Below, one piece after another: positions 8,899-46,929 of a stretch of 57,175 bases of DNA. A program made the position numbers and the translations under genes. The notes under the pieces are model-generated. The model saw only the letters and a program-made list of their open reading frames with translations, was not told the DNA's origin and did no database searches. The DNA is taken from contig DYSZ01000003.1 of the NCBI GenBank assembly GCA_020726265.1, forward strand, positions 1 to 57,175. The letters run 5' to 3'. The stretch comes from Draconibacterium orientale (GTDB lineage: Bacteria > Bacteroidota > Bacteroidia > Bacteroidales > Prolixibacteraceae). Position 1 is the stretch's first letter; each line of letters starts with the position of its first letter.

Positions 8899-8936
8899 AT
8901 TTCCAATTCTTTTTAATGAGAATAGTTTATCAAATG

Positions 8937-10382: not shown

Positions 10383-10416
10383 TTTATATTGTTTTTATAG
10401 TTATACCTGTTATTAA

Positions 10417-15593: not shown

Positions 15594-16009
15594 TTCTCAA
15601 GGTTCAGCCCTTCACTGGGTTTGTGAGTCCTCCACCCTTCTGTGATGCCTCGCTTCTTCCGTTACTATGGCCTCGGCTGACTTCTCTCAACAAATCTTTT
15701 TCAACCGTACTTCATACTTAGTTTCCGCACGTCTGTGATATCTCCCGTGGTAAAACAAATAACCTTCATTCCATGTACCCGCATCATTTACACTCCGGTT
15801 TCCGTGTAGTTTTAGGACTTCGTTTTGTGTTGCAAACTCGTCCAACCGGATATGCCTGATAATGTTCGTGTTCCTCGGGTCAGAACTTTGCCGCCAGCTT
15901 CCTTCAGATTCGCAGTCGCCCACAACACCCTTGCTCTTGGCTAATGATATGTACTGCAACACTCAATCGGGACTTGCACCCTATAGAATATGACCATGCC
16001 CGACACACC

Positions 16010-17031: not shown

Positions 17032-17061
17032 AATTTCAGAATTTTAATATTTCAATGCAGG

Positions 17062-18462: not shown

Positions 18463-18481
18463 GTTTACTGTATTTTAATTG

Positions 18482-21400
18482 TTAAAATGTAACTTTTAAA
18501 CCTAACATAAATGTCTTGGTCCCCGGGTTGTTAAAGTAGTCCATCCCCTGGCCGTTAACAGCACCCTGCAGGTTTGTTTCAGGATCGATACCGGAATAAG
18601 GTGTAAATAACAACAGGTTTTTCCCGGTTCCGTAAATCTGTGCTTCTTTTAAAATCTTATTATTTTTAATTGGCAAATTGTAGGTTAGGGTAATATCTCT
18701 TAACCGCACCCAATCAGTTGGTTCGATGGCTGCTGACGATGGGCCGCCCCCGAAATTACTTCCCATTCCCTGGAACCATTTCTGATCCAAAACAACCGGA
18801 GTAACATTGTCTTTACCCGAACTTACCGTATTTCCCTCTCTGTCAAGGTGACCATAAACACCATCAAACACAACAACATTCTCTGCAGGAGTTTTGTCAA
18901 AATCTATTGTTCCTTCAGGAGTATAATAAACTTCACGGTTTGCAGTAGTTGCGCTGGTTCCAAAATAGTTCATTGCAAAATGAGTTCCGTTGTACATGCT
19001 GCCACCCTTTTTAAATTCCCAAAGAAATGAAAGACTTAAATTTTTATAGTTCAAGTTGTTGGTAATATTTGCTGTCCAGTCCGGATTAACTTTTCCAATT
19101 GGTACCATTGCCCCTGAATTTGTCCATGGATATCCGTCGCGGTTATTATCCGTTGGATCGTCGTTAATCAGCACATTTCCCTGTTCATCCCTGTACCAGT
19201 CTTCACCAAAAATACTTCCATACTCAGCACCGGCAACTGCACGAATCTGAGGTGTGGTAAAACCACCCAGGAAAAGGTTGTCTACTCCGGGAGCAAGCTC
19301 GAGAATAGTGTTCTTAAATTGGGTAAAGTTGGCAATCAAATCCCATGAAAAATCTTTTGATTTAACTACCGTTGCATCCATAGTTAATTCAATACCTTTT
19401 GAGTCCATGCTGGCGGCGTTCATATACACCGAAGTAAAACCAGAGGATGCTGCGATTGGAACACTCATTAACAAGTCGGTATTTTTATTGTAGAAATAGG
19501 TGAAATCTATTCCAAACCTGTTTTTAAAGAATTTCAATTCAGTTCCAACTTCCCATGATTTTTGTGTTTCATGTTTCAAATTTGGATTGCCCAAACCTGA
19601 GCCGACGGCAAAACCGGTTGCACCCTGGTATGGAAAATTAACACCGTTTGTCCAGCCGTCACCAGCGCCGGCACCATAAAAATAATTCGAGGTATTATAA
19701 GCACCTGCAATATTGGCTGTTTTTGCTGCTGAAGCGCGCAGTTTACCATATGACAAAATACTATTGTCGCTTAATGCACTAAGTTCAGTAAATACAAAAC
19801 CAAGGCTAACAGAGGGATAAAATGCTGAAAGATTAGCTTCAGGCATAGTAGTTGACCAGTCGTTACGACCTGTTACACCTAAATACAACATACTGCCATA
19901 AGCCAAACGAACATCACCAAAAACGGCCATTGTACGGTAATTGTAAATACCGGAACTTACAGTGTTATTGGCTGAATTCGACAATTGATAAAATTCCGGA
20001 ATTTCAAGTACGTCAGCATCTCCATACAAATATTTGCTGTAGGTAGAATAGAAGTTATTTCCAAGTGTAACTTTTAAGTTTAACTGGTCATTTAAATTCT
20101 TATCGAAATTCAATAATAAATCGGAATTAAAAATACCTGCATAGTTCATGTATTCATCAACATATCCAGCCGGATTAGATCTTGAATTGATCGCAAATGA
20201 GTTTTTGTATCTGCGGGTGTACCAGTCGATACCTGCATTATACACAAGATTCAGGTATTCGGTAAAATCTATTTTCAGGTTACCACCTCCTGTGAACCTG
20301 TTGATATTTTCGTCGAATGCAATTTTATTTGCTGTCCAGTACGGGTTGTCATAACCGCCACCGTTACGGTAATTACGTTGAGTTCCATCCGGAAATATAT
20401 AACCAGCACTGTTATCAAAAGTGGTAGCCGTACGAACCAAACCCAGCATAACGCCAGATACGTTTGAACCTTTCTGAATTTGTGTTGCCGTTGAATTTGT
20501 GTATGCGAAATCGGCTCCCAGAGTAATTTTCTTATCCAGTTTAGTCGATGCATTTAACCTCATGGTTGTTCTGCCGTATTTGTTGTTCGGTACAACACCT
20601 TCCTGGGTTAAATTAGAAAGTGAAAAAAAGAAATTTCCCTGGTCGTTACCATTACTGATATTCAACCGGTTATTAGTAGAAAGACCTGTTTGGAAAAATT
20701 CATAAGGATCGTAATATTGGGCTGGCTTTTTGCCGCTCCCCTCAACTTTTGGTATAAGCCTACCATACGGATCCCATTTGTATGTAGCATCACCATCATA
20801 TTCAAGATCGGCAATCTTTGGTCCCCATGAAAAAGAGTTACCTCCAATCCATACACCATTATTTCCCTGAGCAAATTTAGTCTGGCGTTCCTGAGTTTGA
20901 GAAATCTGATCGAAACCTACCGAAGTATGGAATTCAATTTTACGGCTGGTCAGGTTTTTACCACTTTTGGTTGTAATAATTAACACACCGTTTGCAGCCT
21001 TTACACCGTAAAGTGCAGTAGCAGCACCCCCTTTTAAAATGGTTATCGACTCAATGTCTTCAGGATTGAGGTCAATAGAACGGCTGGATGTTGTTACACC
21101 ACCAACGCCGCCACCGCCACCACCGGATATGATTGGTAAGCCGTTAACCACAAATAAAGGCTGGTTATTTCCGGTTATTGAAGCAGCACCACGAATAGTC
21201 ATGTAAGTTGAAGCACCTGCGTCGCCGGCTGAACTTGTGATTTGAACACCGGCAGTGCGTCCGGCCAGAGAATTGATAACGTCGGCATTTGGTTTGTTCG
21301 ACAAAACCTCTGCATCAAATGTCTGAGTTGAGTAGCCAAGACTTTTCTTTTCACTCGACATCCCTAATGCAGTAACAACGACTTCGTCAATACCTACTAC

Positions 21401-21697
21401 ATCGGTTTCCATTTTGATATTAAAACTGGTTTGTGAACCAATTTCAATCTCCTGGTTTTTCATCCCAATAAAGCTAAATATCAAAGTTTTAGCATCCTGT
21501 GGAATGTTCAACTGGAAATCACCATCCACATTGGTAACTGAACCAACAGTTGTACCTTTTACAGATACCGAAACTCCGGGAACAGGTTGATTATCCTCGG
21601 CAGAAGTTACCGTCCCCGATATACTTCTTGTTTGAGCATGAACAAACACAGTTCCCATGAAAAGCAAAATCGATAAAAAAAATGCAATTTTTTTCAT
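18482..21697 (-). CDS. SusC/RagA-type TonB-dependent outer-membrane transporter (second operon)
   Basis: A 1071-residue SusC-family transporter. After the signal peptide (ending near AQT, residue 24) come a carboxypeptidase-regulatory-like domain (about 25-105: ISGTVTSAEDNQPVPGVSV, FSFIGMKNQ), a linker with the common VVTALGMSSEKKSLGYST signature, the plug (about 120-240, GAATALYGVKAANGVLIITT) and the barrel, ending TFMLGLKVTF. It is the classical SusC form with a glycine run (SGGGGGGVGG) in the plug. It heads the second operon. The N-terminal 20 residues and the leader closely match the first susC, but the rest is clearly diverged. Substrate unknown. Confidence 0.93.
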   Translation of the reverse strand: MKKIAFFLSILLFMGTVFVHAQTRSISGTVTSAEDNQPVPGVSVSVKGTTVGSVTNVDGDFQLNIPQDAKTLIFSFIGMKNQEIEIGSQTSFNIKMETDVVGIDEVVVTALGMSSEKKSLGYSTQTFDAEVLSNKPNADVINSLAGRTAGVQITSSAGDAGASTYMTIRGAASITGNNQPLFVVNGLPIISGGGGGGVGGVTTSSRSIDLNPEDIESITILKGGAATALYGVKAANGVLIITTKSGKNLTSRKIEFHTSVGFDQISQTQERQTKFAQGNNGVWIGGNSFSWGPKIADLEYDGDATYKWDPYGRLIPKVEGSGKKPAQYYDPYEFFQTGLSTNNRLNISNGNDQGNFFFSLSNLTQEGVVPNNKYGRTTMRLNASTKLDKKITLGADFAYTNSTATQIQKGSNVSGVMLGLVRTATTFDNSAGYIFPDGTQRNYRNGGGYDNPYWTANKIAFDENINRFTGGGNLKIDFTEYLNLVYNAGIDWYTRRYKNSFAINSRSNPAGYVDEYMNYAGIFNSDLLLNFDKNLNDQLNLKVTLGNNFYSTYSKYLYGDADVLEIPEFYQLSNSANNTVSSGIYNYRTMAVFGDVRLAYGSMLYLGVTGRNDWSTTMPEANLSAFYPSVSLGFVFTELSALSDNSILSYGKLRASAAKTANIAGAYNTSNYFYGAGAGDGWTNGVNFPYQGATGFAVGSGLGNPNLKHETQKSWEVGTELKFFKNRFGIDFTYFYNKNTDLLMSVPIAASSGFTSVYMNAASMDSKGIELTMDATVVKSKDFSWDLIANFTQFKNTILELAPGVDNLFLGGFTTPQIRAVAGAEYGSIFGEDWYRDEQGNVLINDDPTDNNRDGYPWTNSGAMVPIGKVNPDWTANITNNLNYKNLSLSFLWEFKKGGSMYNGTHFAMNYFGTSATTANREVYYTPEGTIDFDKTPAENVVVFDGVYGHLDREGNTVSSGKDNVTPVVLDQKWFQGMGSNFGGGPSSAAIEPTDWVRLRDITLTYNLPIKNNKILKEAQIYGTGKNLLLFTPYSGIDPETNLQGAVNGQGMDYFNNPGTKTFMLGLKVTF

Positions 21698-28503: not shown

Positions 28504-28982
28504 TTAAATTACTTCTGAATTCCAAAGTGCTTTCAGGAATTTTTCAGCGGGAATTATTTCAACTCCATTCAGAATTCTTGGTCCGGAATTTCGGCACTCA
28601 CAAGCGGGAAAAGTGTTTTTTTCAAAGCCCTTCCTCCCAGTAAATTAGCTCCGCTTCTGATTAACTTACGGGGACTTGAACCACTCAGAATAAACCGAAT
28701 TTTTTTTCGGTGAATCAACGAATGTATTTCATCCAGTAACTGAGGCACTTTCTGAATCTCATCAATAACGACCAGATCGCCTTCTTTCATTGATTCAAGT
28801 TCTTCACTCAGTAAGGAAGGCTTCCTCAGAAACCTTTCAAATTCTTTTGCCTGTAACAAATCATAGTATCTTGCCTGCGGAAATAGTTAATCCAGTCAGG
28901 TAGTTTTTCCTACCTGACGCGCCCCCCATAAAAACAGACTGTCGTTATTCTCATCTTCAAGCGATAATCTTCGCAAATACAT
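28504..28982 (-). pseudogene. AAA_14/DUF4143-type ATPase, broken
   Basis: Remains of an ATPase of the AAA_14/DUF4143 group, soluble P-loop proteins of unclear function that are common in Bacteroidota and average about 400 residues. From ATG at 28982: MYLRRLSLED, Walker A GARQVGKTT, then in-frame TGA and TAA, then LFPQARYYDLLQAKEFE and the Walker B stretch GDLVVIDEIQKVPQLLDEI, sensor RFILSGSSPRKL and LFPLVSAEIP. There the middle of the gene (about 200 residues) is missing and the frame shifts to the true C-terminus GPRILNGVEIIPAEKFLKAL ending WNSEVI (stop at 28504). No intact product is possible. It sits between nadE and a second nadE 3' end. Confidence 0.88.
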
Positions 28983-30889: not shown

Positions 30890-31900
30890 ATGAAGACATC
30901 AAAATATATTTTACTGATAATACTCGTGGCAATTATTTTTTCGTGCAGGCAAAATACGATGAAAGTAAGACTATCGGGTACTGAGAAGGAGGTTGAAATC
31001 GTAAGATTCGACAACGAATTATTTACCACCGGGTGGGACGACTCTTCGGCAGTTGTAGCGCTCGCCAATAAGTACGCCGCCTTTTTCGATCTTTATACTT
31101 ACAGGGTTATTCATATTGGAGGATTGGGCGACACACTCTTTTTTGAGGGGTTACAGCAGTTTATGACCGACACGATGATGCTCGACATCAGAAAAAAAAC
31201 TGATTCGGTGTTTGCTGGTATTGATGACACAGAAAAGAAACTGAAAGATGCCTTCAAATATTTTCAGTACCATTTCCCGGAGAAAGAATTGCCAACACTC
31301 TATTTTTATATTTCCGGATTTAACCAGTCGGTGGTTACGGCCGAAAATATTATCGGTATAAGTTTAGACAAATACCTTGGGCAAGACTGCAAATGGTACC
31401 AGCACCTCAGTTCAACCCCGCAATATAAAATTGTAAACATGCACAAACTCAAGATTGCTTCGGATGTGGCTTATGCCTGGGGAGCAACAGAGTTTGAAAA
31501 CACAGGCAAAACCACTACCCTGCTCGACAACATAATTTACCAGGGAAAACTGATGTATTTTGTGGATGCACTGCTGCCCGAAACACACGACACACTGAAA
31601 ATCGGATACACAGGAATTCAGCTTGAATGGTGCAAAAAAAACGAAGCACAAATGTGGTCGCAACTGATTGAGCATAAAATGCTGTATTCAAACAACCGGA
31701 TGGATATAATCCGTTACACTAACCCAAGCCCCACCACCAGCGGATTTCCGCTCGAATCGCCCGGCCGGACTGGTGTTTGGATTGGCTGGCAGATTGTAAG
31801 GGAATACATGGAAAAATTCCCTGAAACTCCCTTGGATGATTTGATGAAAAACGACAATTACCAGCAGATTTTAAACGACTCGAAATACTTTCCTGAATAA
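30890..31900 (+). CDS. gldB: Gliding-motility-associated lipoprotein GldB
   Basis: A 336-residue lipoprotein with signal peptide and lipobox IFSC (Cys about 19). The order EVEIVRFDNELF, then a region with TMMLDIRK and FKYFQYHFPEKELPTLYFYISGF and NIIGISLDKYLG, and GFPLESPGRTGVWIGWQIVREYM at the end, matches the GldB family (longer stretches cited only in part). GldB is needed for gliding in Flavobacterium, but homologues are widespread in non-gliding Bacteroidota, so motility should not be concluded. In many genomes gldB sits next to nadE and gldC; here nadE is divergent and gldC is absent. No type IX secretion gene is in the window. Confidence 0.85.
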   Translation: MKTSKYILLIILVAIIFSCRQNTMKVRLSGTEKEVEIVRFDNELFTTGWDDSSAVVALANKYAAFFDLYTYRVIHIGGLGDTLFFEGLQQFMTDTMMLDIRKKTDSVFAGIDDTEKKLKDAFKYFQYHFPEKELPTLYFYISGFNQSVVTAENIIGISLDKYLGQDCKWYQHLSSTPQYKIVNMHKLKIASDVAYAWGATEFENTGKTTTLLDNIIYQGKLMYFVDALLPETHDTLKIGYTGIQLEWCKKNEAQMWSQLIEHKMLYSNNRMDIIRYTNPSPTTSGFPLESPGRTGVWIGWQIVREYMEKFPETPLDDLMKNDNYQQILNDSKYFPE

Positions 31901-32070
31901 TCAGATTTAGTTCTGAAAGTACATTAATCTTACTTTCATTATAACTTACAGGTTTCGAAAAAACCATAAAATGGATTTGATTGAGGAAATCCCCGTATTG
32001 GTTGATTCTCTTTTTTTTTTGATTTGGTTATTTTTTACCTTCGAAAAGAATTTTAGATGAAAGTCAAAAA

Positions 32071-33453
32071 ATGAAAAATGCTTTTCAACTTCTATTCCTG
32101 ATATTACTGATTACTTTAGTTTCATGCTCGGAGGACGAGGAAATTATATCCGGCCAGCAAATAGAAATTCAAACAACCGACTGGACTGAAAAAACACATA
32201 GTTCGGCAGCCATGCCTGATTACGATATAGTTTTCCCGGATGATAAAGTTAACCGAATAGATATTAAAATTGAACCTGAAAACTGGAAGAAAATGCAAAC
32301 CGATTTAGCTTCAAATGTTGGAGGAGGACAAGGAATTCCGGGTCAGCCACCGGGAGATACTGAGTATGATTTATTATGGGTTCCGTGCAATGTATTTTTT
32401 AATAATATTCAATGGTACCAGGCCGGAATTAGGTACAAAGGGAATTCCAGTTTGCGAACAACTTATCAGCGGGGCATAAAGAAACTCCCGTTAAAACTCG
32501 ATTTCGACCAGTTCGAAGACACTTATCCGGCAATTCAAAACCAACGTTTTTATGGTTTCAAGCAATTAAGTCTGAAAAACAACTTCGAAGACAAATCATT
32601 TGTACGCGAGAAAGTGGCTTCCGATCTTTTCCGTGAGTTCGGTCTTGTTTCCCCCAGAACAGCATTTTATCGTGTTTATGTCGATTTTGGAGAGGGTGAA
32701 AAATATTTCGGATTATACACGTTAGTAGAAGAAGTTGATGACACGGTAATTAAAACGCAGTATGCCGAAACTAAAGGAAATCTGTACAAGCCAGAAGGTA
32801 AGGGTGCAACATTTGGGGCCGGTTCTTTTGATATTTCAGATATGTGCAAAAAGACAAACGAAACTGAAAACAATTATTCAGATGTCCAGCAATTGTACAC
32901 AGTTATTAATAGTTCGGAACGGGAAACCAGTAATGACAAGTGGAAAGAAAAACTAAATGCGGTTTTTAATATTCCGCTGTTTTTAAAATGGCTGGCTGTC
33001 AATACTACCATGCAAAACTGGGATACTTATGGAAGAATGACGCACAATTACTATTTGTACAACAATCCTGAATCGGGAAAACTGGAATGGATTCCGTGGG
33101 ATAATAATGAAGCATTGCAGGATGGCAAAATGGGTGGAGCGCTTTCACTTTCGCTGTCAGAAGTTGGAGTAAACTGGCCACTTATTCGATACATTATTAA
33201 CGATAAAACCTGGGAAGCAGAATACAAACAAAATTTATCAGGTTTTGTGAACGGGGTTTTTAATCCAGGGCGTGTCAATATCAAATATGAGAACTACAGG
33301 CAATTATTACGCGAATATGTTGTAGGCAGTTCAGGTGAACAAACCGGCTACACTTTTTTAAGCAACAATGCCGATTTCGATACTGCTGTTGATTTTTTAA
33401 AACTACATGTTGAAAAGCGCAATGAAGCAGTTCGGCAATTTTTATCGAAATAA
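32071..33453 (+). CDS. CotH-kinase-family surface lipoprotein
   Basis: A 460-residue lipoprotein (lipobox LVSC, Cys about 19) with a CotH domain over about residues 60-440. CotH proteins are atypical protein kinases, known from spore-coat CotH. Family features are GIRYKGNSSLRTTY and KLPLKLDFDQFED near the start of the fold, FVREKVASDLFREFGLVSPR in the middle, and the catalytic stretch NWDTYGRMTHNYYLYNNP then LEWIPWDNN, whose aspartates match the metal-binding and catalytic positions. So the enzyme looks active and lies outside the cytoplasm. It starts a cluster with VTC, DUF4956 and DUF2490 genes. ATP outside the cell membrane would be unusual, so the phosphate donor is an open question. Confidence 0.88.
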   Translation: MKNAFQLLFLILLITLVSCSEDEEIISGQQIEIQTTDWTEKTHSSAAMPDYDIVFPDDKVNRIDIKIEPENWKKMQTDLASNVGGGQGIPGQPPGDTEYDLLWVPCNVFFNNIQWYQAGIRYKGNSSLRTTYQRGIKKLPLKLDFDQFEDTYPAIQNQRFYGFKQLSLKNNFEDKSFVREKVASDLFREFGLVSPRTAFYRVYVDFGEGEKYFGLYTLVEEVDDTVIKTQYAETKGNLYKPEGKGATFGAGSFDISDMCKKTNETENNYSDVQQLYTVINSSERETSNDKWKEKLNAVFNIPLFLKWLAVNTTMQNWDTYGRMTHNYYLYNNPESGKLEWIPWDNNEALQDGKMGGALSLSLSEVGVNWPLIRYIINDKTWEAEYKQNLSGFVNGVFNPGRVNIKYENYRQLLREYVVGSSGEQTGYTFLSNNADFDTAVDFLKLHVEKRNEAVRQFLSK

Positions 33454-33476
33454 ATAGTTCTGTAATTCAATTGCTT

Positions 33477-34108
33477 ATGACAAGTCTGGAAATGAAGAAC
33501 GTGATTCAAAATACAAAAAAAGGTGAACTGCTGATTTATTTAATTATTTGGTTGCTATTTGTACGCTTTGGATTTTTTTGGGCAGAATAATGATACAGTC
33601 GGAAGGAATGATGCACATGCCTCCTCCTGGTTTTTCTGCCGATGTGCCTCCTCCTCCGCAACGATTTAAACCCTGGTTTGTCAACCTGCCCGAAATTTTT
33701 ATGATTTCGGTGCTGGTGGTTGGATTTAATGCCACAATAAAACTCACCATAAAAGGTCAGGTTGAAGAACAAAAAAACAAAGAGTTGGAAAAAGAAAAAC
33801 TGCAAACCGAACTGGCTTTTTTACGCAACCAGGTAAGTCCTCATTTTCTGATGAATACTTTGAATAATATTCATGCTCTTGTTGATTTGAATCCCAAAAA
33901 TGCTAAAGAATCGAAAGTAAAATCGCTGGAAGAAAAACATCCTGAATCCAAATTTATGCGTGTTCATCGTTCCTACATTGTTAATACTGATAAAATAGCC
34001 ACGGTTGAACGCTTCCGGATAGTTTTTGATGAAAAGGTTTTTATACCTGTTTCTGAAAATTACAAAGGAAAATTTAATGTATTTCTGAAAAACAAATTTC
34101 TGGAGTAG
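33477..34108 (+). pseudogene. LytS-type kinase / LytTR regulator chimera, broken
   Basis: This is the collapsed remainder of a LytS/LytTR two-component pair. From ATG 33477 or 33492 the protein begins KGELLIYLIIWLLFVRFGFF, a membrane helix, and then loses frame in a run of seven T (33573-33579); one more T would restore it. The next part carries a Pro-rich loop, a second membrane helix (EIFMISVLVVGFNATI), a coiled coil and the H-box QVSPHFLMNTLNNIHAL. At about 33911-33920 the sequence jumps to the DNA-binding end of a LytTR regulator: KSLEEKHPES, FMRVHRSYIVNTDKI. Missing are the ATPase half of the kinase and the receiver domain. The 186-residue piece from 33548 is open but no longer a kinase. 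Confidence 0.85.
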
Positions 34109-34227
34109 AAATCATAATTTACATGCCCCAAACGCGCAGATACTCGTTTTAAATTGCAGGAAGCGTAACAGTTTCTTAATAAAATTCCATAATATTGTGC
34201 CCTTAAAATTATACAACCGAAACTAAC

Positions 34228-35007
34228 TTGAAAGACTTTAACCATATTATTTCAAAATTCACTCCTATATCGCTCAACGAAATTGAAGAAGTAAAACTAA
34301 TGAGCAGAATTGACAGGAAATATTGGTTTCATATTTCAAAATTGCAACAGGTTTTGGAACAAACACTCCCCAACTATCACATTCTTGAAATTAACGGACA
34401 GCGCCTGATGGAATACCAAACCCGTTATTTTGATACTGCCGACAACGACATGTACATGATGCACCACAACAGGTATTTGCCACGCCATAAAATCAGGCTG
34501 AGGAAATATGTTTCTACTGATAGTGGATTTCTGGAGGTGAAATTTAAAACCAACAAAAAAATAACAATTAAAAGTCGTATCGAAAATGAATTTGAAAAAC
34601 CCGCGTTTACAAACACCGACGATAATTTTATTGCTCTGAAAACACCATTTTCAGGAAAAGCAATTTTCCCGGTAATTTTTAACCAATTTCGACGAATAAC
34701 GCTCATCCACAAAGACAAACTCGACCGCTGTACCATCGATATCTCGCCAAAATTCTGGAACGACAAAAACGAAATCTCACTTGAAAACCTTGTGATTTTC
34801 GAAATAAAAAAGGGACACAGTTTAAAATCGTCGCCAATGGTTTCGCTTGCCCGAAGCCTGAAAATACGTCAACGCGGAATGTCGAAATATTGTACTGGTC
34901 GTGCATTGCTTGAACCAAAACTGAAACAAAATTCTTTCAAACCACGACTTCGATATATACACCGACATATTCTAAACGAAATACAGCCATGGGAATTTCA
35001 AACATAA
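34228..35007 (+). CDS. VTC-domain (polyphosphate polymerase-like) protein
   Basis: A 259-residue soluble protein of the VTC/CYTH tunnel family, whose eukaryotic member Vtc4 polymerises polyphosphate from ATP. The start codon is TTG at 34228, since the family begins with FTPISLNEIEEVKLMSRIDRKYWF, cut here to its first part, and the first in-frame ATG would remove it. Charged tunnel strands are SRIDRKYWF, YQTRYFDTADN, HKIRLRKY, FLEVKFKTNKK and FEIKKGH, with Lys, Arg and Glu spaced as in triphosphate-binding tunnels. It overlaps the DUF4956 gene by 19 bases. The biochemical activity of bacterial members is mostly untested. Confidence 0.87.
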   Translation: MKDFNHIISKFTPISLNEIEEVKLMSRIDRKYWFHISKLQQVLEQTLPNYHILEINGQRLMEYQTRYFDTADNDMYMMHHNRYLPRHKIRLRKYVSTDSGFLEVKFKTNKKITIKSRIENEFEKPAFTNTDDNFIALKTPFSGKAIFPVIFNQFRRITLIHKDKLDRCTIDISPKFWNDKNEISLENLVIFEIKKGHSLKSSPMVSLARSLKIRQRGMSKYCTGRALLEPKLKQNSFKPRLRYIHRHILNEIQPWEFQT

Positions 35008-35624
35008 TTACCTCTCAATTTGCCCTCGAAAATTTTTATGCCCTGGCTATCAGGTTTGGCTTTAACCTGATTGCCACCTTCTTTATTGTTGTAATGCTGT
35101 ATGCACAAAACAGCAAGCGCAAGGAATTCTATTTCAGCTACTTTGCAATAAGCATTGCCGTTTTTATGCTTTGTTTTCTGCTCGAAAGCGTTAAACTTGA
35201 GCTTGGTTTTGCGTTAGGACTATTTGCAATATTTGGTATTATCCGCTACCGAACCGATGCAATTCCGATTAAGGAAATGACTTATTTATTCGTAATTATT
35301 GCTGTTTCGGTGGTAAATGCTTTATCAAAAGATTTCCTTGGATACCTGGAACTTACTTTTGTAAATATTATGCTGGTAGGCGCACTCTGGATTTTGGAAC
35401 AGGTTTTATTGCTTCGCCAGGAAGATTCGCTACTGATTATTTACGACAATATTGAAAACATTGCACCAACCCGTGAAGCTGAACTATTAGCTGATCTTGA
35501 AAAAAGAACAGGGCGTAAAATCAGGCGATATCAGATTGATAAAGTTGATTTACTGCGCGATGTTGCCACTATCACAATTTATTTTTATGTAAACGGAAAA
35601 GGAAAATCAAAAATCGCCCGATGA
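34989..35624 (+). CDS. DUF4956-family membrane protein
   Basis: A 211-residue inner-membrane protein with about four membrane helices (about residues 18-38, 47-66, 67-88 cut by an Arg/Lys turn, and 96-140) and a cytoplasmic C-terminal domain of about 70 residues. I recognise the DUF4956 family by its FGIIRYRTDAIPIKEMTYLF loop. Family members are regularly encoded with VTC proteins and CotH kinases, and the function is unknown. It overlaps VTC by 19 bases and the next gene by 4, so translation of the three is coupled. The C-terminal domain, with KRTGRKIRRYQIDKVD, is basic and could bind VTC or an anionic polymer; that is inference. Confidence 0.85.
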   Translation: MGISNIITSQFALENFYALAIRFGFNLIATFFIVVMLYAQNSKRKEFYFSYFAISIAVFMLCFLLESVKLELGFALGLFAIFGIIRYRTDAIPIKEMTYLFVIIAVSVVNALSKDFLGYLELTFVNIMLVGALWILEQVLLLRQEDSLLIIYDNIENIAPTREAELLADLEKRTGRKIRRYQIDKVDLLRDVATITIYFYVNGKGKSKIAR

Positions 35625-36259
35625 AAAAACTGGCAGTAGTTTTCGTGTTAAGCTTTTTTATTACACAGGCAGCTGTTGCAAAAACTGAAAAATTCGGGAC
35701 TTGGGTTGAACTTACTTTTTCAAAGAAATTTCTAAAAAAATTTGAATTCAGTGTTATTCCAGAATTCAGGTTTCAGGACGATTTCACCATGGACGAATAC
35801 ATTTTTGAAGGCAAAATGGAATACAAACCATTCAAATTCCTGAATATCGCCACTTCTTACCGGTATGGAGTGAATGTTAAAAAAAGCGGAAATGAAAAAA
35901 TGCAGCATGGAGCTGTAGATATCACGGGGAAAACACGAATCAGCCGTTTTTATGCTTCGTTGCGCGCCCGCTTTACCAACGATGCTGACACCGATGAAAT
36001 TCAGTGGGAAACTTTTTATTTACGTCCGCGTGGAAAAATTGAATATAATATCAAAAACTGGAAAACCGACCCTTATTTTTCATACGAGTTTTATTACGAC
36101 TTTAAAAACAACTCTGTTTTTAAAGGCCGTTATGATATCGGTGCTAGCCGGAAAATAGGTAAAAACCACGAAGTGGGAGTTTATTCCAGGTATCAAGATT
36201 ACTACTACGCCAGGAAATCGGTAAACATCATCGGGTTAAACTATGCTTTCGGATTTTAA
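35621..36259 (+). CDS. DUF2490-family outer-membrane beta-barrel protein
   Basis: A 212-residue secreted protein with a signal peptide ending near AVA-KT (residue 20) followed by alternating hydrophobic strands typical of a small outer-membrane barrel: FGTWVELTFSKKF, YIFEGKMEYKPF, RFYASLRARF, YSRYQDYYYARK and the C-terminal LNYAFGF. It fits the DUF2490 family. The 4-base overlap with DUF4956 places it in the same transcript. It would be the outer-membrane partner of the CotH-VTC-DUF4956 cluster, which then spans cytoplasm, inner membrane and outer membrane. Function unknown. Confidence 0.82.
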   Translation: MKKLAVVFVLSFFITQAAVAKTEKFGTWVELTFSKKFLKKFEFSVIPEFRFQDDFTMDEYIFEGKMEYKPFKFLNIATSYRYGVNVKKSGNEKMQHGAVDITGKTRISRFYASLRARFTNDADTDEIQWETFYLRPRGKIEYNIKNWKTDPYFSYEFYYDFKNNSVFKGRYDIGASRKIGKNHEVGVYSRYQDYYYARKSVNIIGLNYAFGF

Positions 36260-36381
36260 GGCCAAAACGACAGCCTTGAATTGGTAAAAAGAATACTAAA
36301 AAAGCTTAAAGCACAACCCCTTTTGTAATTTTTTTATTCAACTTTAAACTGATAAAAAATTACAAGCTAAATATCGTAATC

Positions 36382-38133
36382 ATGGCCAGGACTATATTCT
36401 TCTTACTTACATTGTTAACAATATTTGCCTGCACACCCAAATCAGGCACTTCCGAAAAATCAGAAGAAACAAAACAACAGGATGCTAAAATGGAATGGTG
36501 GCGCGACGCGCGCTTTGGCATGTTTATCCACTGGGGTTTGTATTCCGTTCCGGCTGGTGAATGGGAAGGCAGGGAAATTCCCGGCATAAGTGAGTGGATT
36601 ATGCTCAGGGCAGGTATCCCAGTTAAAGATTATGAGCAATTAGCAGAGAATTTCAATCCTGTAAAATTCGATGCCGAAAAATGGGTGTTGCTGGCCAAAA
36701 ATGCTGGCATGAAATACATCGTTATCACTTCGAAACACCACGATGGTTTTGCAATGTTCCATTCAAAGGCAAGCCCGTATAATATTTACGATGCCACACC
36801 TTTTAAACGCGATCCATTGAAAGAACTTTCTGATGCTTGTAAAAAACACAATATCCGCCTTGGATTTTATTATTCGCAGGCACAAGACTGGCACGAACCC
36901 GGTGGCACCTATTCAGGAATTGAAAAAGGAACGCCACACTGGGATCCGACTTTAAAACACGATTCGCTGATGAATTACATTCAGCAAAAAGCGCTTCCCC
37001 AAGTAAAAGAAATTCTTGAGAATTATGGCGGGCTTGATATTCTCTGGTGGGACACCCCCATCGCAATGACTGAAGAAGCAGCAAAATTGCTGCAACACGA
37101 AGTGGACAAATACCCTAATCTTATCACAAACAACAGGCTTTACAGACCCTGGCCCGGCGATTTTTCAACGCCAGAACAATATGTTCCGCCAACCGGCCTC
37201 GATTACGACTGGGAAGTATGTATGACCATGAATACAAGCTGGGGCTATAAATGGTACGACAATAACTGGAAATCGGCTGAATCACTCATCCACATGTTGG
37301 TTGATATAGCCAGCAAAGGTGGCAATCTGCTGTTGAATGTCGGACCCACTGCTGAAGGAATTATTCCCGATTCGAGCGCGGTAAGGCTCGAACAAATAGG
37401 CAACTGGATGAAACAAAACGGAGAATCGGTTTATGGAACATCAGCAAGCCCGTTTTTTAAATTGCCTTGGGGGAGGTGTACACAAAGGCAGGAAAATGGA
37501 AACACAATTTTGTATCTTCATGTTTTGAACTGGCCTAAAGATCAGGTTTTGAAAATTCCCGGACTGAAAGCAAAAATTCAGGATGTTTACCTTCTTACCA
37601 ACCCCAAACAGAAATTTGCATGGAAATTCGAAAATGGCAATGTGCTTATTCATGCTCCTTCGGTAATTTTCGACCCGATTAACACAGTAATTGTGGTAAA
37701 AACCAAAGGCTACCTTAAAATAACAAGCAACATGCCCACATTGAAGGATGGGAAAATTGAGTTACCGGCTGAATTTTCCGACATCCATAACCCAGGCTAT
37801 GGAATTCATGCTGTACTCCATGGTTCGGGCGACAAGGCGGTAATAAAAAACTGGAGCGATTCAAGAGTTCAGGTAGAATGGATGTTTAATGTCTCAGAAC
37901 CTGGCATTTATAAAATTGAAAGTTTGATGAAGACAAAAGCTATTTGCGGTATTAATATAGGGGTTGGGGAACAAAACATAAAAACTGAAATTCAACCTTC
38001 GGATGATAAATTTGAGGTCGTTTTGCTTGGACAAATACAAATATCAGAACCAGGAAACAAGGTTTTAAACATTACGCCAGTCAAGGAAAATTGGGACGAG
38101 ATTGAAATAAAGAAAATTATTTTATCAAAATAA
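36382..38133 (+). CDS. GH29 alpha-L-fucosidase, lipoprotein
   Basis: Predicted GH29 retaining alpha-L-fucosidase of 583 residues, anchored as a lipoprotein (lipobox IFAC, Cys about 17). The catalytic (beta/alpha)8 barrel covers about residues 38-370: WWRDARFGMFIHWGLYSVPA, YIVITSKHHDGFAMFHS and RLGFYYSQAQDWH are classic GH29 segments, and the nucleophile aspartate lies in GGLDILWWDTPI (about 220). DIASKGGNLLLNVGPTAEG and the small beta domain follow, and a C-terminal beta module (about 445-583) may bind carbohydrate. It removes terminal fucose from glycans. It is not next to the Sus operons and stands alone as a + strand gene. Confidence 0.92.
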   Translation: MARTIFFLLTLLTIFACTPKSGTSEKSEETKQQDAKMEWWRDARFGMFIHWGLYSVPAGEWEGREIPGISEWIMLRAGIPVKDYEQLAENFNPVKFDAEKWVLLAKNAGMKYIVITSKHHDGFAMFHSKASPYNIYDATPFKRDPLKELSDACKKHNIRLGFYYSQAQDWHEPGGTYSGIEKGTPHWDPTLKHDSLMNYIQQKALPQVKEILENYGGLDILWWDTPIAMTEEAAKLLQHEVDKYPNLITNNRLYRPWPGDFSTPEQYVPPTGLDYDWEVCMTMNTSWGYKWYDNNWKSAESLIHMLVDIASKGGNLLLNVGPTAEGIIPDSSAVRLEQIGNWMKQNGESVYGTSASPFFKLPWGRCTQRQENGNTILYLHVLNWPKDQVLKIPGLKAKIQDVYLLTNPKQKFAWKFENGNVLIHAPSVIFDPINTVIVVKTKGYLKITSNMPTLKDGKIELPAEFSDIHNPGYGIHAVLHGSGDKAVIKNWSDSRVQVEWMFNVSEPGIYKIESLMKTKAICGINIGVGEQNIKTEIQPSDDKFEVVLLGQIQISEPGNKVLNITPVKENWDEIEIKKIILSK

Positions 38134-41449: not shown

Positions 41450-44400
41450 ATGCTTGATAAAATTCTCGATTTCAGCATAAAGAATAAACTTATTGTTATT
41501 CTTTTCACCCTATCGGTTGCGGCATTCGGAATATTTGCTGTTTTGCACATTCCGGTGGGCGCTGTTCCCGACATAACCAACAACCAGATACAGGTAATCA
41601 CCACTTCGGACAACCTTTCCACCCAGGAAATTGAGCAGTTTATAACTGCTCCGGTAGAAATGGAAATGGCCAACCTGCCGGCTGTTAAGGAAATCCGCTC
41701 GGTTTCGAAATTCGGGTTATCGGTTGTAACAGTGGTATTCGACGATAATATTGGCACTTACCTGCCCCGTCAATTAATTGCCGAAAAAATTAAAAATGCG
41801 TCAACCAATATTCCCGAAGGATTCGGAACACCAGAAATGGGGCCGATTACAACGGGTTTGGGCGAAATTTACCAATATACACTGGATGTAAAACCGGGTT
41901 ACGAAGGCAAATACACAGCCATGGATTTACGCACCATTCAGGATTGGGTGGTAAAACGACGGTTGTCGGGCATCAACGGAGTTGTTGAAATCAATAGTTG
42001 GGGCGGCTATCTGAAACAGTACGAAGTGGCCATCGATCCGGTTCGTTTGCAGGGTGCAGGGGTTACGCTGATGGATATTTTTTCCGCTATCGAATCAAAC
42101 AACAGTATTTCTGGCGGTGCTTACATCGAAAAAACCAACCAAAGCTACTTTATCAGGGGCGATGGACAGGTAAAATCGCTCGACGATATTAAGAACACTG
42201 TTGTTGTCAACAACAATGGAATCCCTTTACTGATAGGCGATTTGGCCGAAGTACGGTTTGGAAACGCCAATCGTTTTGGCGCAATCACTTCTAATGGGAA
42301 AGGTGAAACTGTGTTGGGGCAGATAATGATGCTTAAAGATGCCAACTCAAAAGAGGTAATTACTGAAGTTAAAAACCGTGTGGCCGAAATTCAGAGTAAC
42401 CTCCCCGAAGGTGTTTTCATCAACCCGATTCTCGAACGCAGCGAACTCATTTCAAAAACATCGTTCACCGTGGCCGAGAACCTGATTTTAGGTGCAATCA
42501 TCGTTATGTTTACTGTGGTTTTGCTGTTAGGCAATATACGTTCAGCGCTGGTAATCGCATCGATGATTCCGTTGATTTTGCTTTTCACTATCGCGATGAT
42601 GTTCATATTTAAAATCGACGCTAACCTGATGAGCCTTGGTGCTTTAGACTTCGGGGTAATGATTGACGGAGCAGTGATTATCGTGGAATTTATCGCCATT
42701 AAAATAACAGCCCAAAAAGCTGCAATAGACGGCTTTCTGGGCGATGATCGCCAGTCGCTGCTCGACAGGATTTCTTTCAGCGGTGCTTCAAAAATGATGA
42801 ATTCTGCCATTTTCGGGCAAGTCATTATTCTCATCGTATTTATTCCTATCCTCTCGCTTCAGGGTGTTGAAGGAAAAATGTTCCGCCCGATGGCACTTTC
42901 GTTTTCGTTTGCTATCATCGGTGCCATGATTTTTGGAATCACTTGGTTACCAGTAGCCTGCTCGCTTTTCCTAAAACCTGAAAAACCGGGGAAACGGAAC
43001 ATATCGACATGGATTATGGACTTCGCTTACAAAACATACGTTCCCTCTATAAAATGGTCGTGCGGTCACAAAAAAACAGTGCTTGGCGCTGCGCTTTTGT
43101 CGCTTGTGTTTATCGGATTCCTGTTTTCGCGAATGGGTGGTGAGTTTGTTCCTACCCTTGACGAGGGAGATTTTGTAATCCAGCCGGTGCTGAAAACCGG
43201 CACATCGCTCACAAAGACTGTTGAAATGACTACCAAAATGGAAAACATCCTCATCGATAAGTTTCCGGAAGTTGATCAGATTGTGAGCAGGATTGGCGCA
43301 GCCGAAGTTCCGACAGACCCGATGTCGATGGAAGAAATAGATATGATTATCAAGCTTAAGCCGAGAGAAACATGGGTAAATGCCGAAACAAAAGAAGAGT
43401 TAGCCGAAAAATTCAAGGAAGCGCTATCGTTGATTCCGGGCGTTGAATATGAATTCACGCAACCCATAGAAATGCGTTTTAATGAGCTGATTACGGGGGT
43501 ACGGTCTGATATTGCCATCAAAATTTTTGGCGACGATTTAGAATACATCAACCGAAAGGCTATCGAAATAAAAAACCTGATTGCTGATGTTCCCGGTGCA
43601 GGCGACGTGATACTGGAGAAAACAGCAGGTTTACCGCAAATCAAAATAGAATACCAGCGCGAAAAAATTGCGTATTACGGCCTCGATATCAAAACGCTGA
43701 ATGGTTACCTGGCCGCGGCCTTTGGTGGCGAAAAGGCAGGCACAGTTTTCGAGGGCGAAAAGCGCTTCGATCTGGTAATTCGTCTGCAAAAGCAAAACCG
43801 CACCGACCTGGAAGATATCAAACGCTTGTTTGTGCCTTTGGAAAATGGCAATCAGATTCCTCTCTCAGAAGTGGCGCGCATTGAATATGCCGAAGGCCCT
43901 GCTAAAATCTCGCGTGAAAATACACACCGCCGGGTGGTGGTTAGTGTAAATGTGCGTAACCGCGATTTACAGTCGGTGGTGGAGGATATTCAGGCCAAAA
44001 TTGACAAAAACGTTACATTGAAACCCGGCAATTACATTTCCTACGGTGGCCAGTTCGAAAACCTTCAAAATGCAACCGACAGGCTTATTTTTGCCGTACC
44101 AGTGGCTCTGCTCCTTATTTTTATCTTCCTCCATTTTGCGTTTAAATCAATTAAAGACGCTGCATTGATATTCACCGCAATACCCCTCTCTGCAGTGGGT
44201 GGCGTGGTACTTTTATGGCTCAGGGGAATGCCGTTCAGTGTTTCGGCAGGAGTTGGTTTTATTGCACTTTTCGGGATTGCAGTGCTCAACGGAATTGTGT
44301 TAATTGAACATTTGAAAGAATTGCAGCACAGCGGAATAACCGACATGCGCGAATTGATTCTGAAAGGTACAAAAAACAGGCTTCGTCCGGTGATGCTCAC

Positions 44401-45790
44401 CGCTGGTGCAGCAGCAATGGGATTTCTGCCGATGGCAATTTCAAACGGAGCTGGTGCCGAAGTACAGCGCCCGTTGGCAACCGTGGTTATTGGTGGTTTA
44501 TTTACATCCACTTTGCTTACAATGATTGCACTGCCGCTATTGTTCGAAATTTTCTACAACATTAAAGGATTTAAACTCTTGCCTTTTAAAGTGATTCGCT
44601 CAAAAACCGTAATTATACTTGCCCTGATTTCGTTCACTGCTTTTTCATCCGGTGCACAAACAAAACAACTTTCACTCACCGAAATTATTGATATTGCCAT
44701 TGTTAACAGCCGCGAAATTGGTGCTGCACAACTAAAAGTTGAGGAGAGCAAAGTGCTGAAATCGACAGGTTTTGCACTCGAAAAAACAGCATTTACTTAT
44801 GGGACTGACCAAAACAACATTGCTGAAAACGGACACCCGCTGAACGTAGCCGGAGTTGTACAGGGATTCAGCTTCCCCACTTTGTACAGTGCACGAACCA
44901 GCGCGTTGAAAATCGACATTCAAAAAGCAGAACTGATGCTCGAAATACAGAAAGCAGCGCTCAAAAAAGAAATATCATTGTGTTATTTCGCCATTCAGCA
45001 AAACCTTGGTAAAATACAGCTGTACAAAAGTATCGACAGTTTATACACCGTGCTGCTTAAAAATGCCACACTCCGGTTCGAAAAAGGCAATTTGAGCCAA
45101 CTCGATATGCTCAGCATAAAAGCCCGGCAACAAGCAGTAAAGCTCAACCTTGGCAGTTTCAAAACACAGCACCAACAGCTGCTACAGAAACTAAAAATGC
45201 TGATGAATTACAACGAAGATTTTTCAATTCCTGAAATGGCCGAGGTGCTCCCCACTCCACCCGACAGTCTGCCCGTGAATGCTTTTTACCAGTTGGTTTT
45301 ATTGCAGGACAAAACCAGTGAGGCGATGCTGAAAATTGAAAAAAACAAGTTACTACCCGATTTTTCGCTAAACTATTTTGTGGGAAGCAACAAATACCAA
45401 AATTCAAAATATTACCATGGTTTCGAAGTGGAATTGGCAATGCCACTCATTTTTGGTGGTCAGCAGGCGCAGAAAAAGTCGTCGGAAATTGCTTTGAATG
45501 CACAGCAACTGCTCACCCAAAACGAAATTGCACGGCTAAAAAACCGCTGGAATCAACTGAAAAAGGAAACACAAAAATACAGTGAACTGATTGCCTATTA
45601 CAATGAAACCGGCAAATTGCTGTACGACGAAATTCTGAGGGCCACCACCATCAACCTGCAAAGCGGCGAAACCGACCTTTTCAAATTTACCTACAACTTT
45701 GAAACGGCTGTACAGATAAAAATCGACTATCTCGATAACTTGCTCAATTACAATACGCTTTTACTTGAACAAATGTATCTTTCCAACTAA
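41450..45790 (+). CDS. CzcA/CusA-type heavy-metal RND pump fused to a TolC-like outer-membrane factor
   Basis: A 1446-residue fusion. Residues 1 to about 1040 are an RND exporter (12 helices, two large periplasmic loops) of the heavy-metal group: DFGVMIDGAVIIVE carries D400, D406 and E413, the proton-relay set of the CzcA (zinc/cobalt/cadmium) class. From about residue 1050 a second signal-like helix (TVIILALISFTAFSSGAQ) leads into a TolC-family outer-membrane channel domain (about 1070-1446; SLTEIIDIAIVNSREI, FEKGNLSQLDMLSIKARQQA). Separate czcC is therefore not needed; the adaptor gene follows 5 bases later. The N-terminal periplasmic loops lack the CusA methionine pairs, so divalent cations other than copper are likelier. 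Such fusions are known in Bacteroidota. Confidence 0.93.
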   Translation: MLDKILDFSIKNKLIVILFTLSVAAFGIFAVLHIPVGAVPDITNNQIQVITTSDNLSTQEIEQFITAPVEMEMANLPAVKEIRSVSKFGLSVVTVVFDDNIGTYLPRQLIAEKIKNASTNIPEGFGTPEMGPITTGLGEIYQYTLDVKPGYEGKYTAMDLRTIQDWVVKRRLSGINGVVEINSWGGYLKQYEVAIDPVRLQGAGVTLMDIFSAIESNNSISGGAYIEKTNQSYFIRGDGQVKSLDDIKNTVVVNNNGIPLLIGDLAEVRFGNANRFGAITSNGKGETVLGQIMMLKDANSKEVITEVKNRVAEIQSNLPEGVFINPILERSELISKTSFTVAENLILGAIIVMFTVVLLLGNIRSALVIASMIPLILLFTIAMMFIFKIDANLMSLGALDFGVMIDGAVIIVEFIAIKITAQKAAIDGFLGDDRQSLLDRISFSGASKMMNSAIFGQVIILIVFIPILSLQGVEGKMFRPMALSFSFAIIGAMIFGITWLPVACSLFLKPEKPGKRNISTWIMDFAYKTYVPSIKWSCGHKKTVLGAALLSLVFIGFLFSRMGGEFVPTLDEGDFVIQPVLKTGTSLTKTVEMTTKMENILIDKFPEVDQIVSRIGAAEVPTDPMSMEEIDMIIKLKPRETWVNAETKEELAEKFKEALSLIPGVEYEFTQPIEMRFNELITGVRSDIAIKIFGDDLEYINRKAIEIKNLIADVPGAGDVILEKTAGLPQIKIEYQREKIAYYGLDIKTLNGYLAAAFGGEKAGTVFEGEKRFDLVIRLQKQNRTDLEDIKRLFVPLENGNQIPLSEVARIEYAEGPAKISRENTHRRVVVSVNVRNRDLQSVVEDIQAKIDKNVTLKPGNYISYGGQFENLQNATDRLIFAVPVALLLIFIFLHFAFKSIKDAALIFTAIPLSAVGGVVLLWLRGMPFSVSAGVGFIALFGIAVLNGIVLIEHLKELQHSGITDMRELILKGTKNRLRPVMLTAGAAAMGFLPMAISNGAGAEVQRPLATVVIGGLFTSTLLTMIALPLLFEIFYNIKGFKLLPFKVIRSKTVIILALISFTAFSSGAQTKQLSLTEIIDIAIVNSREIGAAQLKVEESKVLKSTGFALEKTAFTYGTDQNNIAENGHPLNVAGVVQGFSFPTLYSARTSALKIDIQKAELMLEIQKAALKKEISLCYFAIQQNLGKIQLYKSIDSLYTVLLKNATLRFEKGNLSQLDMLSIKARQQAVKLNLGSFKTQHQQLLQKLKMLMNYNEDFSIPEMAEVLPTPPDSLPVNAFYQLVLLQDKTSEAMLKIEKNKLLPDFSLNYFVGSNKYQNSKYYHGFEVELAMPLIFGGQQAQKKSSEIALNAQQLLTQNEIARLKNRWNQLKKETQKYSELIAYYNETGKLLYDEILRATTINLQSGETDLFKFTYNFETAVQIKIDYLDNLLNYNTLLLEQMYLSN

Positions 45791-45795
45791 AAAAA

Positions 45796-46929
45796 ATGAA
45801 AATGAAGACTCAATCGAAAATATTCGCAATGGTTTTCAGCGCTGCTGTATTGATAACACTGGCATCGTGCGGCAACAAGAAACAAGCAGAAGAACCGGCA
45901 GCGGTGACCGATTCCTTAATTGTAGTTACAAAAACTCAGTTCGAAACCGAAAAAATGGCGCTTGGGACCGCATCGATGATGCCTTTTGACCAGGTGGTGA
46001 AATGCTATGGCAAAATCGTGGCGAAGTCAACCGGAATGGCAAAACTTAGCACACCTGTGGCCGGTATTGTACAGAAAATATATTGTTCAAACGGACAAAT
46101 GGTTGGCCGTGGACAGGTACTATTTGAACTTTCTGGCAACGATCTCATCGAAATTCAGCGCGATTTTACTGAGACATCGAGCATATTGAAAAAGGCTAAG
46201 TCGGAATTCGACAGGATGAAAGCGCTGTATTCCGAAAAAGTGGGAACCGAAAAGGAATATATTATGGCCGAAAGCGAATATAAGGCTGCTAATGCCCGTT
46301 ATGCAGCCCTTAAACTCAAAATTGAAGCGATGGGACTTGACGCTGCAAAAATTGATGAAGGTCAGTTTTTCAGTTCGTTTAAAATTGTTGCACCCATCAG
46401 CGGACAAATCTCGCAAATCAATCTTTCAATCGGGCAGTTTGCCGATCCGCAAAACTACCATGCCGAAATCATCGACTCAAAACAAATGCAACTTCAATTA
46501 GCTGTTTTCGAAAAAGAAGTAGGACAGCTGAAATCCGGACAGGTTGTAAACTTCAATCTTCTGAGCGAGACGACGCAAATGAGCGCAACACTTCAATCGG
46601 TGGGGAATATAGTCGATAACCAAACAAAAACAGTTGCCTGCTATGCTTCACTTGCAGCAACAGAAAAGCTGCTTGTAAACAATGCCTTTACTGAGGCAAA
46701 CATCATTATTGGCACCGACACTCTGAATGCCGTTCCTTCAGAAGCAATGATGAAAACCGAGAACGAGTTTTTTGTATTGAAATTGGCCAGGCAAGATGCC
46801 GAAAATTACTATTTTGAAAAAATAAAGGTGGAACCCGGACAAACAAACAGGACGTACACTGAAGTAAAAAACATACAGAGTGCTGAAAAACTGCTTGTTT
46901 CGGGAATTTATAATCTGGTGATTGAATAG
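45796..46929 (+). CDS. RND efflux periplasmic adaptor (CzcB/CusB-like) lipoprotein
   Basis: A 377-residue membrane-fusion protein with lipobox LASC (Cys about 24), which anchors it in the inner membrane. It has a split lipoyl domain (about 80-110, GIVQKIYCSNGQMVGRGQVL; then SFKIVAPISGQISQINLSIG), an alpha hairpin (about 110-185) and beta-barrel domains to the end. It begins 5 bases after the pump gene, so the pair forms one operon and the adaptor bridges the pump to its own fused channel. The protein has neither the N-terminal metal-binding CusF-like domain nor His-rich stretches. Substrate set by the pump; likely divalent heavy metals. Confidence 0.9.
   Translation: MKMKTQSKIFAMVFSAAVLITLASCGNKKQAEEPAAVTDSLIVVTKTQFETEKMALGTASMMPFDQVVKCYGKIVAKSTGMAKLSTPVAGIVQKIYCSNGQMVGRGQVLFELSGNDLIEIQRDFTETSSILKKAKSEFDRMKALYSEKVGTEKEYIMAESEYKAANARYAALKLKIEAMGLDAAKIDEGQFFSSFKIVAPISGQISQINLSIGQFADPQNYHAEIIDSKQMQLQLAVFEKEVGQLKSGQVVNFNLLSETTQMSATLQSVGNIVDNQTKTVACYASLAATEKLLVNNAFTEANIIIGTDTLNAVPSEAMMKTENEFFVLKLARQDAENYYFEKIKVEPGQTNRTYTEVKNIQSAEKLLVSGIYNLVIE

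Follow-up and report, generated by a model that had tools for sequence, protein, structure and literature searches.

A VTC-DUF4956 gene pair in Draconibacterium orientale as a candidate polyphosphate polymerase-translocase with interchangeable outer parts

A run of genes in Draconibacterium orientale raises the question of what a CotH-family kinase, a VTC-domain protein and members of the families DUF4956 and DUF2490 do at the cell envelope, and which of them form the working unit. The genes lie on contig DYSZ01000003.1, positions 1 to 57,175 (the window, meaning this whole stretch of 57,175 nucleotides), in a 3.86-Mb Bacteroidota genome assembled as 346 contigs. Comparative analysis shows that VTC and DUF4956 are the core of the system, and that this core is older and wider than the window. 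The preferred reading, held at a probability of about 0.5, is that the two proteins act together as a bacterial polyphosphate polymerase-translocase whose outer parts are interchangeable. As a counterpart of the eukaryotic VTC complex, VTC would use ATP to build polyphosphate on the cytoplasmic side of the inner membrane, and DUF4956 would take up the chain from VTC and pass it across that membrane. The window and its relatives would rely on DUF2490 for the step at the second membrane; in other Bacteroidota this step would fall to HlyD-type adaptors, in one case together with a TolC-type channel. CotH would act as a frequent extracytoplasmic partner. The genes concerned and their two flanks are as follows.

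32071-33453, +: CotH-family kinase, predicted lipoprotein (PF08757, 1.6e-66; alignment to the solved CotH 5jd9)
33545-34108, +: pseudogene in which an internal deletion has joined a LytS-type histidine kinase to the last part of a LytTR response regulator (PF06580 and PF04397 fragments, tblastn)
34228-35007, +: VTC-domain protein of 259 residues, TTG start, predicted polyphosphate polymerase (PF09359, 1.7e-21)
34989-35624, +: inner-membrane protein of the DUF4956 family, predicted to work with VTC in translocation (PF16316, 1.7e-51)
35621-36259, +: DUF2490 protein, predicted outer-membrane barrel (PF10677, 2.3e-17)
30890-31900, +: GldB, upstream flank of CotH
36382-38133, +: fucosidase, 3' flank of DUF2490

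A preliminary description of this locus, made from the letters alone, gave the coordinates and families of the four intact genes of the cluster and the overlaps of 19 bases (VTC/DUF4956) and 4 bases (DUF4956/DUF2490), all of which a Pfam and open reading frame (ORF) check reproduces. Two of its details are corrected here, since a LytS/LytTR remnant separates CotH from VTC and the helix count of DUF4956 differs.

The pairing of VTC with DUF4956 recurs in every sample. Among 61 related genomes, the window's own included, there are 55 VTC genes and 80 DUF4956 matches, and every one of the 55 VTC genes has a DUF4956 gene on its own strand no more than 1.5 kb away; these genes are far from independent, because 37 of the genomes belong to one genus and the other 24 to other families of the order. 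A second set comprises the best 80 of 544 loci by DUF4956 similarity and is skewed to close relatives, including Prolixibacteraceae (Draconibacterium and others). A simple ORF caller found DUF4956 in 77 of these 80 loci, on which the locus counts are based, and VTC stands upstream of it in 67, with four of the ten misses at a contig edge. Among plasmid records, 17 carry DUF4956 and 16 carry VTC, and each of the 16 has the two as an adjacent pair; the 16 span five non-Bacteroidota genera groups, with nine from Aminobacter. Of 14 control genomes, Bacteroides ihuae, Corynebacterium glutamicum and Methanosarcina acetivorans hold both families and are the only ones in which either was found. In an evenly drawn sample of 148 Bacteroidota genomes, VTC is found in 29, DUF4956 in 45 and CotH in 60, and every VTC genome has DUF4956. 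This gene-neighbourhood survey thus places the co-occurrence far above chance, within families too.

The VTC protein is favoured, from its sequence, as a predicted polyphosphate polymerase. It scores 77.3 bits against a Pfam VTC cut-off of 23, and its AlphaFold model (predicted local distance difference test, pLDDT, 93) matches chains of Vtc4 and the VTC complex first among solved structures (Z 18.3, root-mean-square deviation 2.9 over 212 residues), with CYTH triphosphatase-type folds lower at Z about 15. A profile alignment pairs R27, K31, R90, R92, E103 and K105 with Vtc4 R196, K200, R264, R266, E279 and K281, and K107, R156, R167, E192, K194 and K220 with H283, R361, R373, E426, K428 and K458. 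In this numbering the chain offset of +185 is inferred; R264, R266, E426 and K458 were checked against the literature, and the remaining numbers follow from alignment and offset. Nineteen diagnostic tunnel positions show no variation among all 64 aligned relatives, so the substitution of tunnel residues that would have spoken against the reading is not seen. In 24 more distant VTC proteins, R27, K31, R90, R92, E103, K105, E192, K194 and K220 are all kept; nine of the 14 positions checked and R156 are invariant, and the others change conservatively, position 219 excepted. The catalytic lysine of Vtc4, K458, corresponds to K220 and is present in all rows. According to the accessible part of one study, Vtc4 is impaired by R264A/R266A/E426N (PMC9911596).

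Whether such a tunnel builds or cleaves phosphate chains may be read in part from its second metal site. In hydrolases of this fold the second metal needs three acids, in AtTTM3 Glu-2, Glu-4 and Glu-171, as stated in the accessible text of PMC4641920. A motif alignment places R27, D29 and K194 of the window protein at these positions, and R and K occupy two of them in all 64 relatives and all 24 distant proteins. Two of three positions are therefore basic as in Vtc4 and D29 is acidic, while the fourth position of the acidic patch falls outside the alignment. Two basic residues and one acidic residue favour a polymerase, though they do not settle the matter.

The partner protein is built for the membrane. 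The DUF4956 model (pLDDT 81.5) shows five membrane-region helices (13-38, 46-68, 72-88, 94-112 and 119-140), where four had been described, followed by a soluble C-terminal beta-alpha-beta domain. R86, R88, E96 and E137 are present in 71 of 71 rows, and positions 45 and 95 hold a basic residue in all 71. Two basic loops of the model (43-45 and 86-95) and its C-terminus are probably cytoplasmic, judged by the positive-inside rule. In yeast, the chain leaves the Vtc4 tunnel along a basic path that guides it to the membrane channel, as described in the available part of PMC9911596; by analogy, R86, R88 and E96 could form a similar path.

The neighbours of the pair tie it to phosphate and to the envelope. 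The window's DUF2490 protein has a signal peptide and a terminal Phe, both read by eye, and may serve as the outer-membrane outlet; the family follows DUF4956 in 52 of the 77 loci and precedes it in four more. In the phylum sample, 25 of the 33 VTC places were read as loci; an HlyD-type adaptor stands beside the pair in 13 of the 25, DUF2490 in six. Of the 13 adaptors, those in L165, L167, L171, L194 and L200 pass the Pfam cut-off, that in L168 falls below it, and that in L172 has no Pfam match; those in L166, L169, L170, L182, L183 and L199 are assigned by a family model, which recovered each of its eight members when left out (worst value 9.9e-33). The order in L194 is LTXXQ-type protein, CotH, DUF4956, HlyD, OEP (TolC type), VTC and a lamin-tail protein. 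Six loci of one family carry DUF4956 without VTC, then an HlyD-sized gene and a protein of about 410 residues. In L187, the one of the six that was scanned, the gene after DUF4956 is HlyD-type, and the 412-residue protein after it has no Pfam match and gives E 0.014 against the L194 OEP in a single comparison. On a Pseudoalteromonas plasmid, a phosphate-selective porin (Porin_O_P, 2.4e-47) begins two bases after DUF4956. In one Deinococcus the pair adjoins an acid-phosphatase-like gene (below the Pfam cut-off) and a phosphonate ABC transporter; in a second, CotH adjoins it. No HlyD- or TolC-type gene was found by Pfam at 30890-38133 of the window. The HlyD and TolC neighbours argue for export, whereas the porin, Pit and phytase-like genes seen on plasmids could also mean uptake.

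Other exported proteins accompany these loci. A transthyretin-like lipoprotein family with a GGTSxIxGK start, delimited by single-linkage grouping, recurs in 26 of the 80 loci, mostly upstream of VTC; small secreted proteins with YDEDGN-type repeats occur in 14 of 80 and LTXXQ/Spy-like proteins in six. All three kinds are possible CotH substrates or polymer binders. A Cthe_2159-type beta-helix carbohydrate-binding protein lies directly before VTC in L070 (by Pfam) and in L073 and L074 (by clustering), and after DUF2490 in L155. In L045 and L046 the cluster is extended by Lcl_C, a Spy-like protein, CotH, a ferric-reductase-like membrane protein and a Tat-signal flavoprotein, which makes a metal or redox link possible. 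An apparent VTC fusion of 778 residues in L164 was rejected as an artefact of start choice in a GC-rich frame.

CotH residues D318 and D344 align with two aspartates of the solved CotH 5jd9, so the catalytic aspartates are intact as first described; the 23-residue spacing in 5jd9 equals that of D228-D251 in Bacillus subtilis CotH. Read from the sequence, the lipobox cysteine is Cys19 and is followed by the acidic stretch SEDEE; among Bacteroidota lipoproteins such a stretch is a sign that the protein is exported to the surface. In B. subtilis, CotH activity requires D228 and D251 according to the accessible part of PMC7821199.

Its junction with VTC is less well preserved. Within the 775 bases that separate the two genes lies the decayed kinase-regulator remnant. 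Comparison by tblastn with intact relatives places residues 87-212 of a 363-residue LytS-type kinase at 33545-33922 and residues 177-237 of a 238-residue LytTR regulator at 33917-34102, in frame with the preceding kinase fragment. Because L036, L037 and L077 keep both regulators intact in the same spot, in the order CotH, kinase, regulator, VTC, DUF4956, DUF2490, the window holds a decaying version of this junction. In the nearest relatives, L040 and L041, GldB stands directly before VTC and the locus lacks CotH, with CotH genes kept at other sites of both genomes. The simplest history is that the regulators were lost first and CotH next, with VTC-DUF4956-DUF2490 retained.

CotH is linked to the pair by genome more than by place. 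Among the 61 relatives it lies within 5 kb of VTC in 21 of 55 cases against 0.36 expected under random placement, a comparison whose P value is not literal since the genomes are related, and in 26 loci of the 80-locus set it lies no farther than 5 kb away, with both strands counted. By genome, 34 of 37 relatives with VTC have CotH against 7 of 24 others. In the phylum sample, where CotH was counted completely by presence per genome, it occurs in 29 of 29 VTC genomes against 31 of 119 without VTC, and in 42 of 45 DUF4956 genomes against 18 of 103 others. Shuffling CotH within families gave at least 29 joint VTC genomes in 0.1% of trials (mean 24.7) and 42 joint DUF4956 genomes in none of 20,000 (mean 35.4). 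That the CotH of the window is no more than an incidental neighbour, acting independently of VTC-DUF4956, is nevertheless suggested by several counts: 34 of the 55 VTC loci have no CotH within 5 kb, three of the 37 related VTC genomes have no CotH match, and CotH is annotated near VTC in one of five annotated plasmid stretches. With only the other families of the order considered, CotH is present in 8 of 10 genomes with VTC and 6 of 14 without (P 0.10, not significant). The decay of the regulator pair, together with the CotH-free locus of L040 and L041, points the same way, and the decaying junction is among the weaker points of the earlier interpretation. A control fucosidase family is also tied to VTC (15 of 29 against 29 of 119, P 0.006; P 0.036 within families). 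Against an incidental role stand the full presence of CotH in VTC genomes, the within-family shuffles, the persistence of CotH elsewhere in the L040 and L041 genomes, and the weaker within-family links of the fucosidase control (P 0.04 and 0.07). In genomes of at least 3.5 Mb, moreover, the fucosidase-VTC link vanishes (P 1.0) while the CotH-VTC link stays (27 of 27 against 25 of 49, P 1.8e-6). An incidental CotH is accordingly judged improbable, and the favoured view is of a frequent functional partner in the phylum that is not part of the core. In L052, L054, L190, L197 and L198, where DUF4956 occurs with no VTC, its neighbour is a secreted protein of 341-357 residues that shows a CotH-like NTDW...HN...PYDYD pattern by eye. 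A profile comparison with CotH gave E 0.0057 but a probability of 6%, and there is no Pfam or PDB match, so the protein is not assigned to CotH.

Several observations weigh against the polymerase-translocase reading of the pair itself. DUF4956 occurs without VTC in 25 of 80 matches among the relatives and in 16 of 45 DUF4956 genomes of the phylum sample, and six of the 25 phylum loci have neither HlyD nor DUF2490 nearby. PPK1 is present in the window genome, in 135 of the 148 sampled genomes and in 27 of the 29 with VTC, so VTC is dispensable for polyphosphate synthesis as such. DUF4956 found no profile match and no significant fold match in the PDB, Vtc1 included; for the membrane part this says little, because the VIA list covers residues 142-206 only. 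Opposite AtTTM3 Glu-4 the window protein has the acidic D29 (E in other rows), as a hydrolase would, where Vtc4 has T198, and alphaproteobacterial plasmids follow DUF4956-VTC with a Pit phosphate transporter and a phytase-like protein, or the latter alone. The last two points, along with the acid-phosphatase-like gene, the phosphonate transporter and the porin described above, suit a system in which DUF4956 imports polyphosphate, or some other phosphate compound, after its passage through the outer membrane, and VTC hydrolyses it as a triphosphatase or polyphosphatase, the activity of most studied tunnel enzymes. Such a role is unlikely, given that two of the three hydrolytic metal-site acids are R and K in all aligned rows, that K220 matches the catalytic lysine throughout, and that HlyD- and TolC-type partners export in known systems. 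An equally unlikely proposal has the set serve the assembly or phosphorylation of an exopolysaccharide or adhesin, with CotH using ATP or another donor and VTC-DUF4956 supplying or tuning the process. It gains from the Pel-linked gene sets of streptococci and clostridia discussed below and from exported Cthe_2159, Lcl_C, lamin-tail and transthyretin-like neighbours in Bacteroidota; it loses from an ORF and Pfam scan of the window cluster, which found neither a glycosyltransferase nor a Pel gene, and from exported neighbours that vary by locus while VTC-DUF4956 stays constant. A pure sensor, in which the VTC tunnel and the ferredoxin-like DUF4956 C-terminus detect phosphate compounds and regulate envelope genes with no polymer made, is very unlikely. 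LytS/LytTR genes adjoin the cluster in several relatives, and the beta-alpha-beta end is of a type common in ligand sensors (best VIA Z 5.5, not significant), but all tunnel residues aligned to catalytic Vtc4 residues are kept, which a pure sensor would not need, and the HlyD, TolC-type and porin partners are left unexplained. A regulatory-sensor role was set aside as a candidate, its basis being this non-significant fold match.

The polymerase-translocase reading thus keeps its tunnel residues and its co-occurrence, and export across the envelope, as the preliminary description proposed, is strengthened by HlyD, TolC-type and porin neighbours of VTC, DUF4956 or both; CotH ranks as a partner outside the core. 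A broader version is unlikely: general bacterial polyphosphate export through both membranes, with DUF4956 as a translocase class of its own and the polymer as phosphoryl donor for surface CotH, which would let phosphate be transferred at the cell surface with no ATP present. If export is true, many bacteria would carry a polyphosphate synthase-translocase of the eukaryotic type, hidden behind the DUF4956 label, and bacteria would own a dedicated route that places polyphosphate outside the cell. Where the ATP for phosphorylation by CotH in the spore coat comes from is named as an unanswered question in the accessible part of PMC7821199; with export, the question of CotH's extracellular phosphate source would become testable.

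Elsewhere in the window, a broken group II intron lies at 14171-15925 on the minus strand, with Rfam domains at 15607-15701 and 15755-15925 beside a 156-residue RVT_1 reverse transcriptase fragment. Two similar minus-strand runs (7909-13674 and 16066-21697) each encode a TonB-dependent receptor of about 1080 residues and proteins of 466-481 and 321-329 residues; the 466-481-residue protein of the first run is SusD-like. A 96-residue AAA_14 ATPase piece at 28569-28859 on the minus strand is apparently truncated. At 41450-46929 on the plus strand, a 1446-residue ORF combines a full AcrB-type pump with an OEP (TolC-type) domain and is followed by HlyD, forming a fused RND exporter.

Parts of the system are already in print. 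In 2020 a set of cotH, a poly-phosphate polymerase, DUF4956 and DUF4832 was reported beside Pel genes in streptococci and clostridia, and a regulatory role of CotH phosphorylation was suggested for it (PMC7112168, accessible part). Because that report already contains the set, calling the system undescribed was too strong. The available text on the Clostridium perfringens locus NELoc-2 lists VTC-domain protein, membrane protein, VTC-domain protein, membrane protein and CotH in order, the membrane proteins carrying a tubulin/FtsZ label (PMC2879425); we would guess that they are DUF4956 proteins. Bacteroides thetaiotaomicron BT3498-BT3499, which are DUF4956 and DUF2490, appear together in an iron-response table in the accessible part of PMC10434189. 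No link of DUF4956 to HlyD, TolC, porins or polyphosphate export was found in the literature searched, which did not extend to preprints and most subscription papers.

Compared with the eukaryotic VTC complex (Vtc1, Vtc2/3 and Vtc4), the window pair is alike in outline, because tunnel fold, catalytic and tunnel residues, and the pairing of a cytosolic enzyme with a membrane part are shared. It differs in that the 259-residue protein has no SPX domain, only the VTC domain being found, and the membrane part is a separate five-helix DUF4956 with its own soluble domain and no sequence match or significant fold match to Vtc1. With the Gram-positive Pel set, as far as the accessible text of PMC7112168 describes it, the window shares CotH, VTC and DUF4956 and offers a Gram-negative example; it lacks Pel genes, has DUF2490 in place of DUF4832, and has an outer membrane. 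The NELoc-2 order of VTC, membrane protein and CotH is similar in the part of PMC2879425 available. Like the Bacillus spore protein, the window CotH has a PF08757 domain and both catalytic aspartates; unlike it, it is a predicted lipoprotein in a Gram-negative host. HlyD-TolC tripartite exporters are approached by the phylum-sample loci whose operons include an HlyD-type adaptor and, in one case, an OEP channel. Unlike those exporters, an operon of the L194 type has no ABC, MFS or RND pump gene, so that DUF4956 would be the inner-membrane part; the window cluster itself lacks such genes, the RND-OEP fusion and HlyD at 41450-46929 being another unit. What is new here is the association of the pair with HlyD-type adaptors, in one locus alongside a TolC-type channel, and the position of DUF4956 before a phosphate-selective porin on a plasmid.

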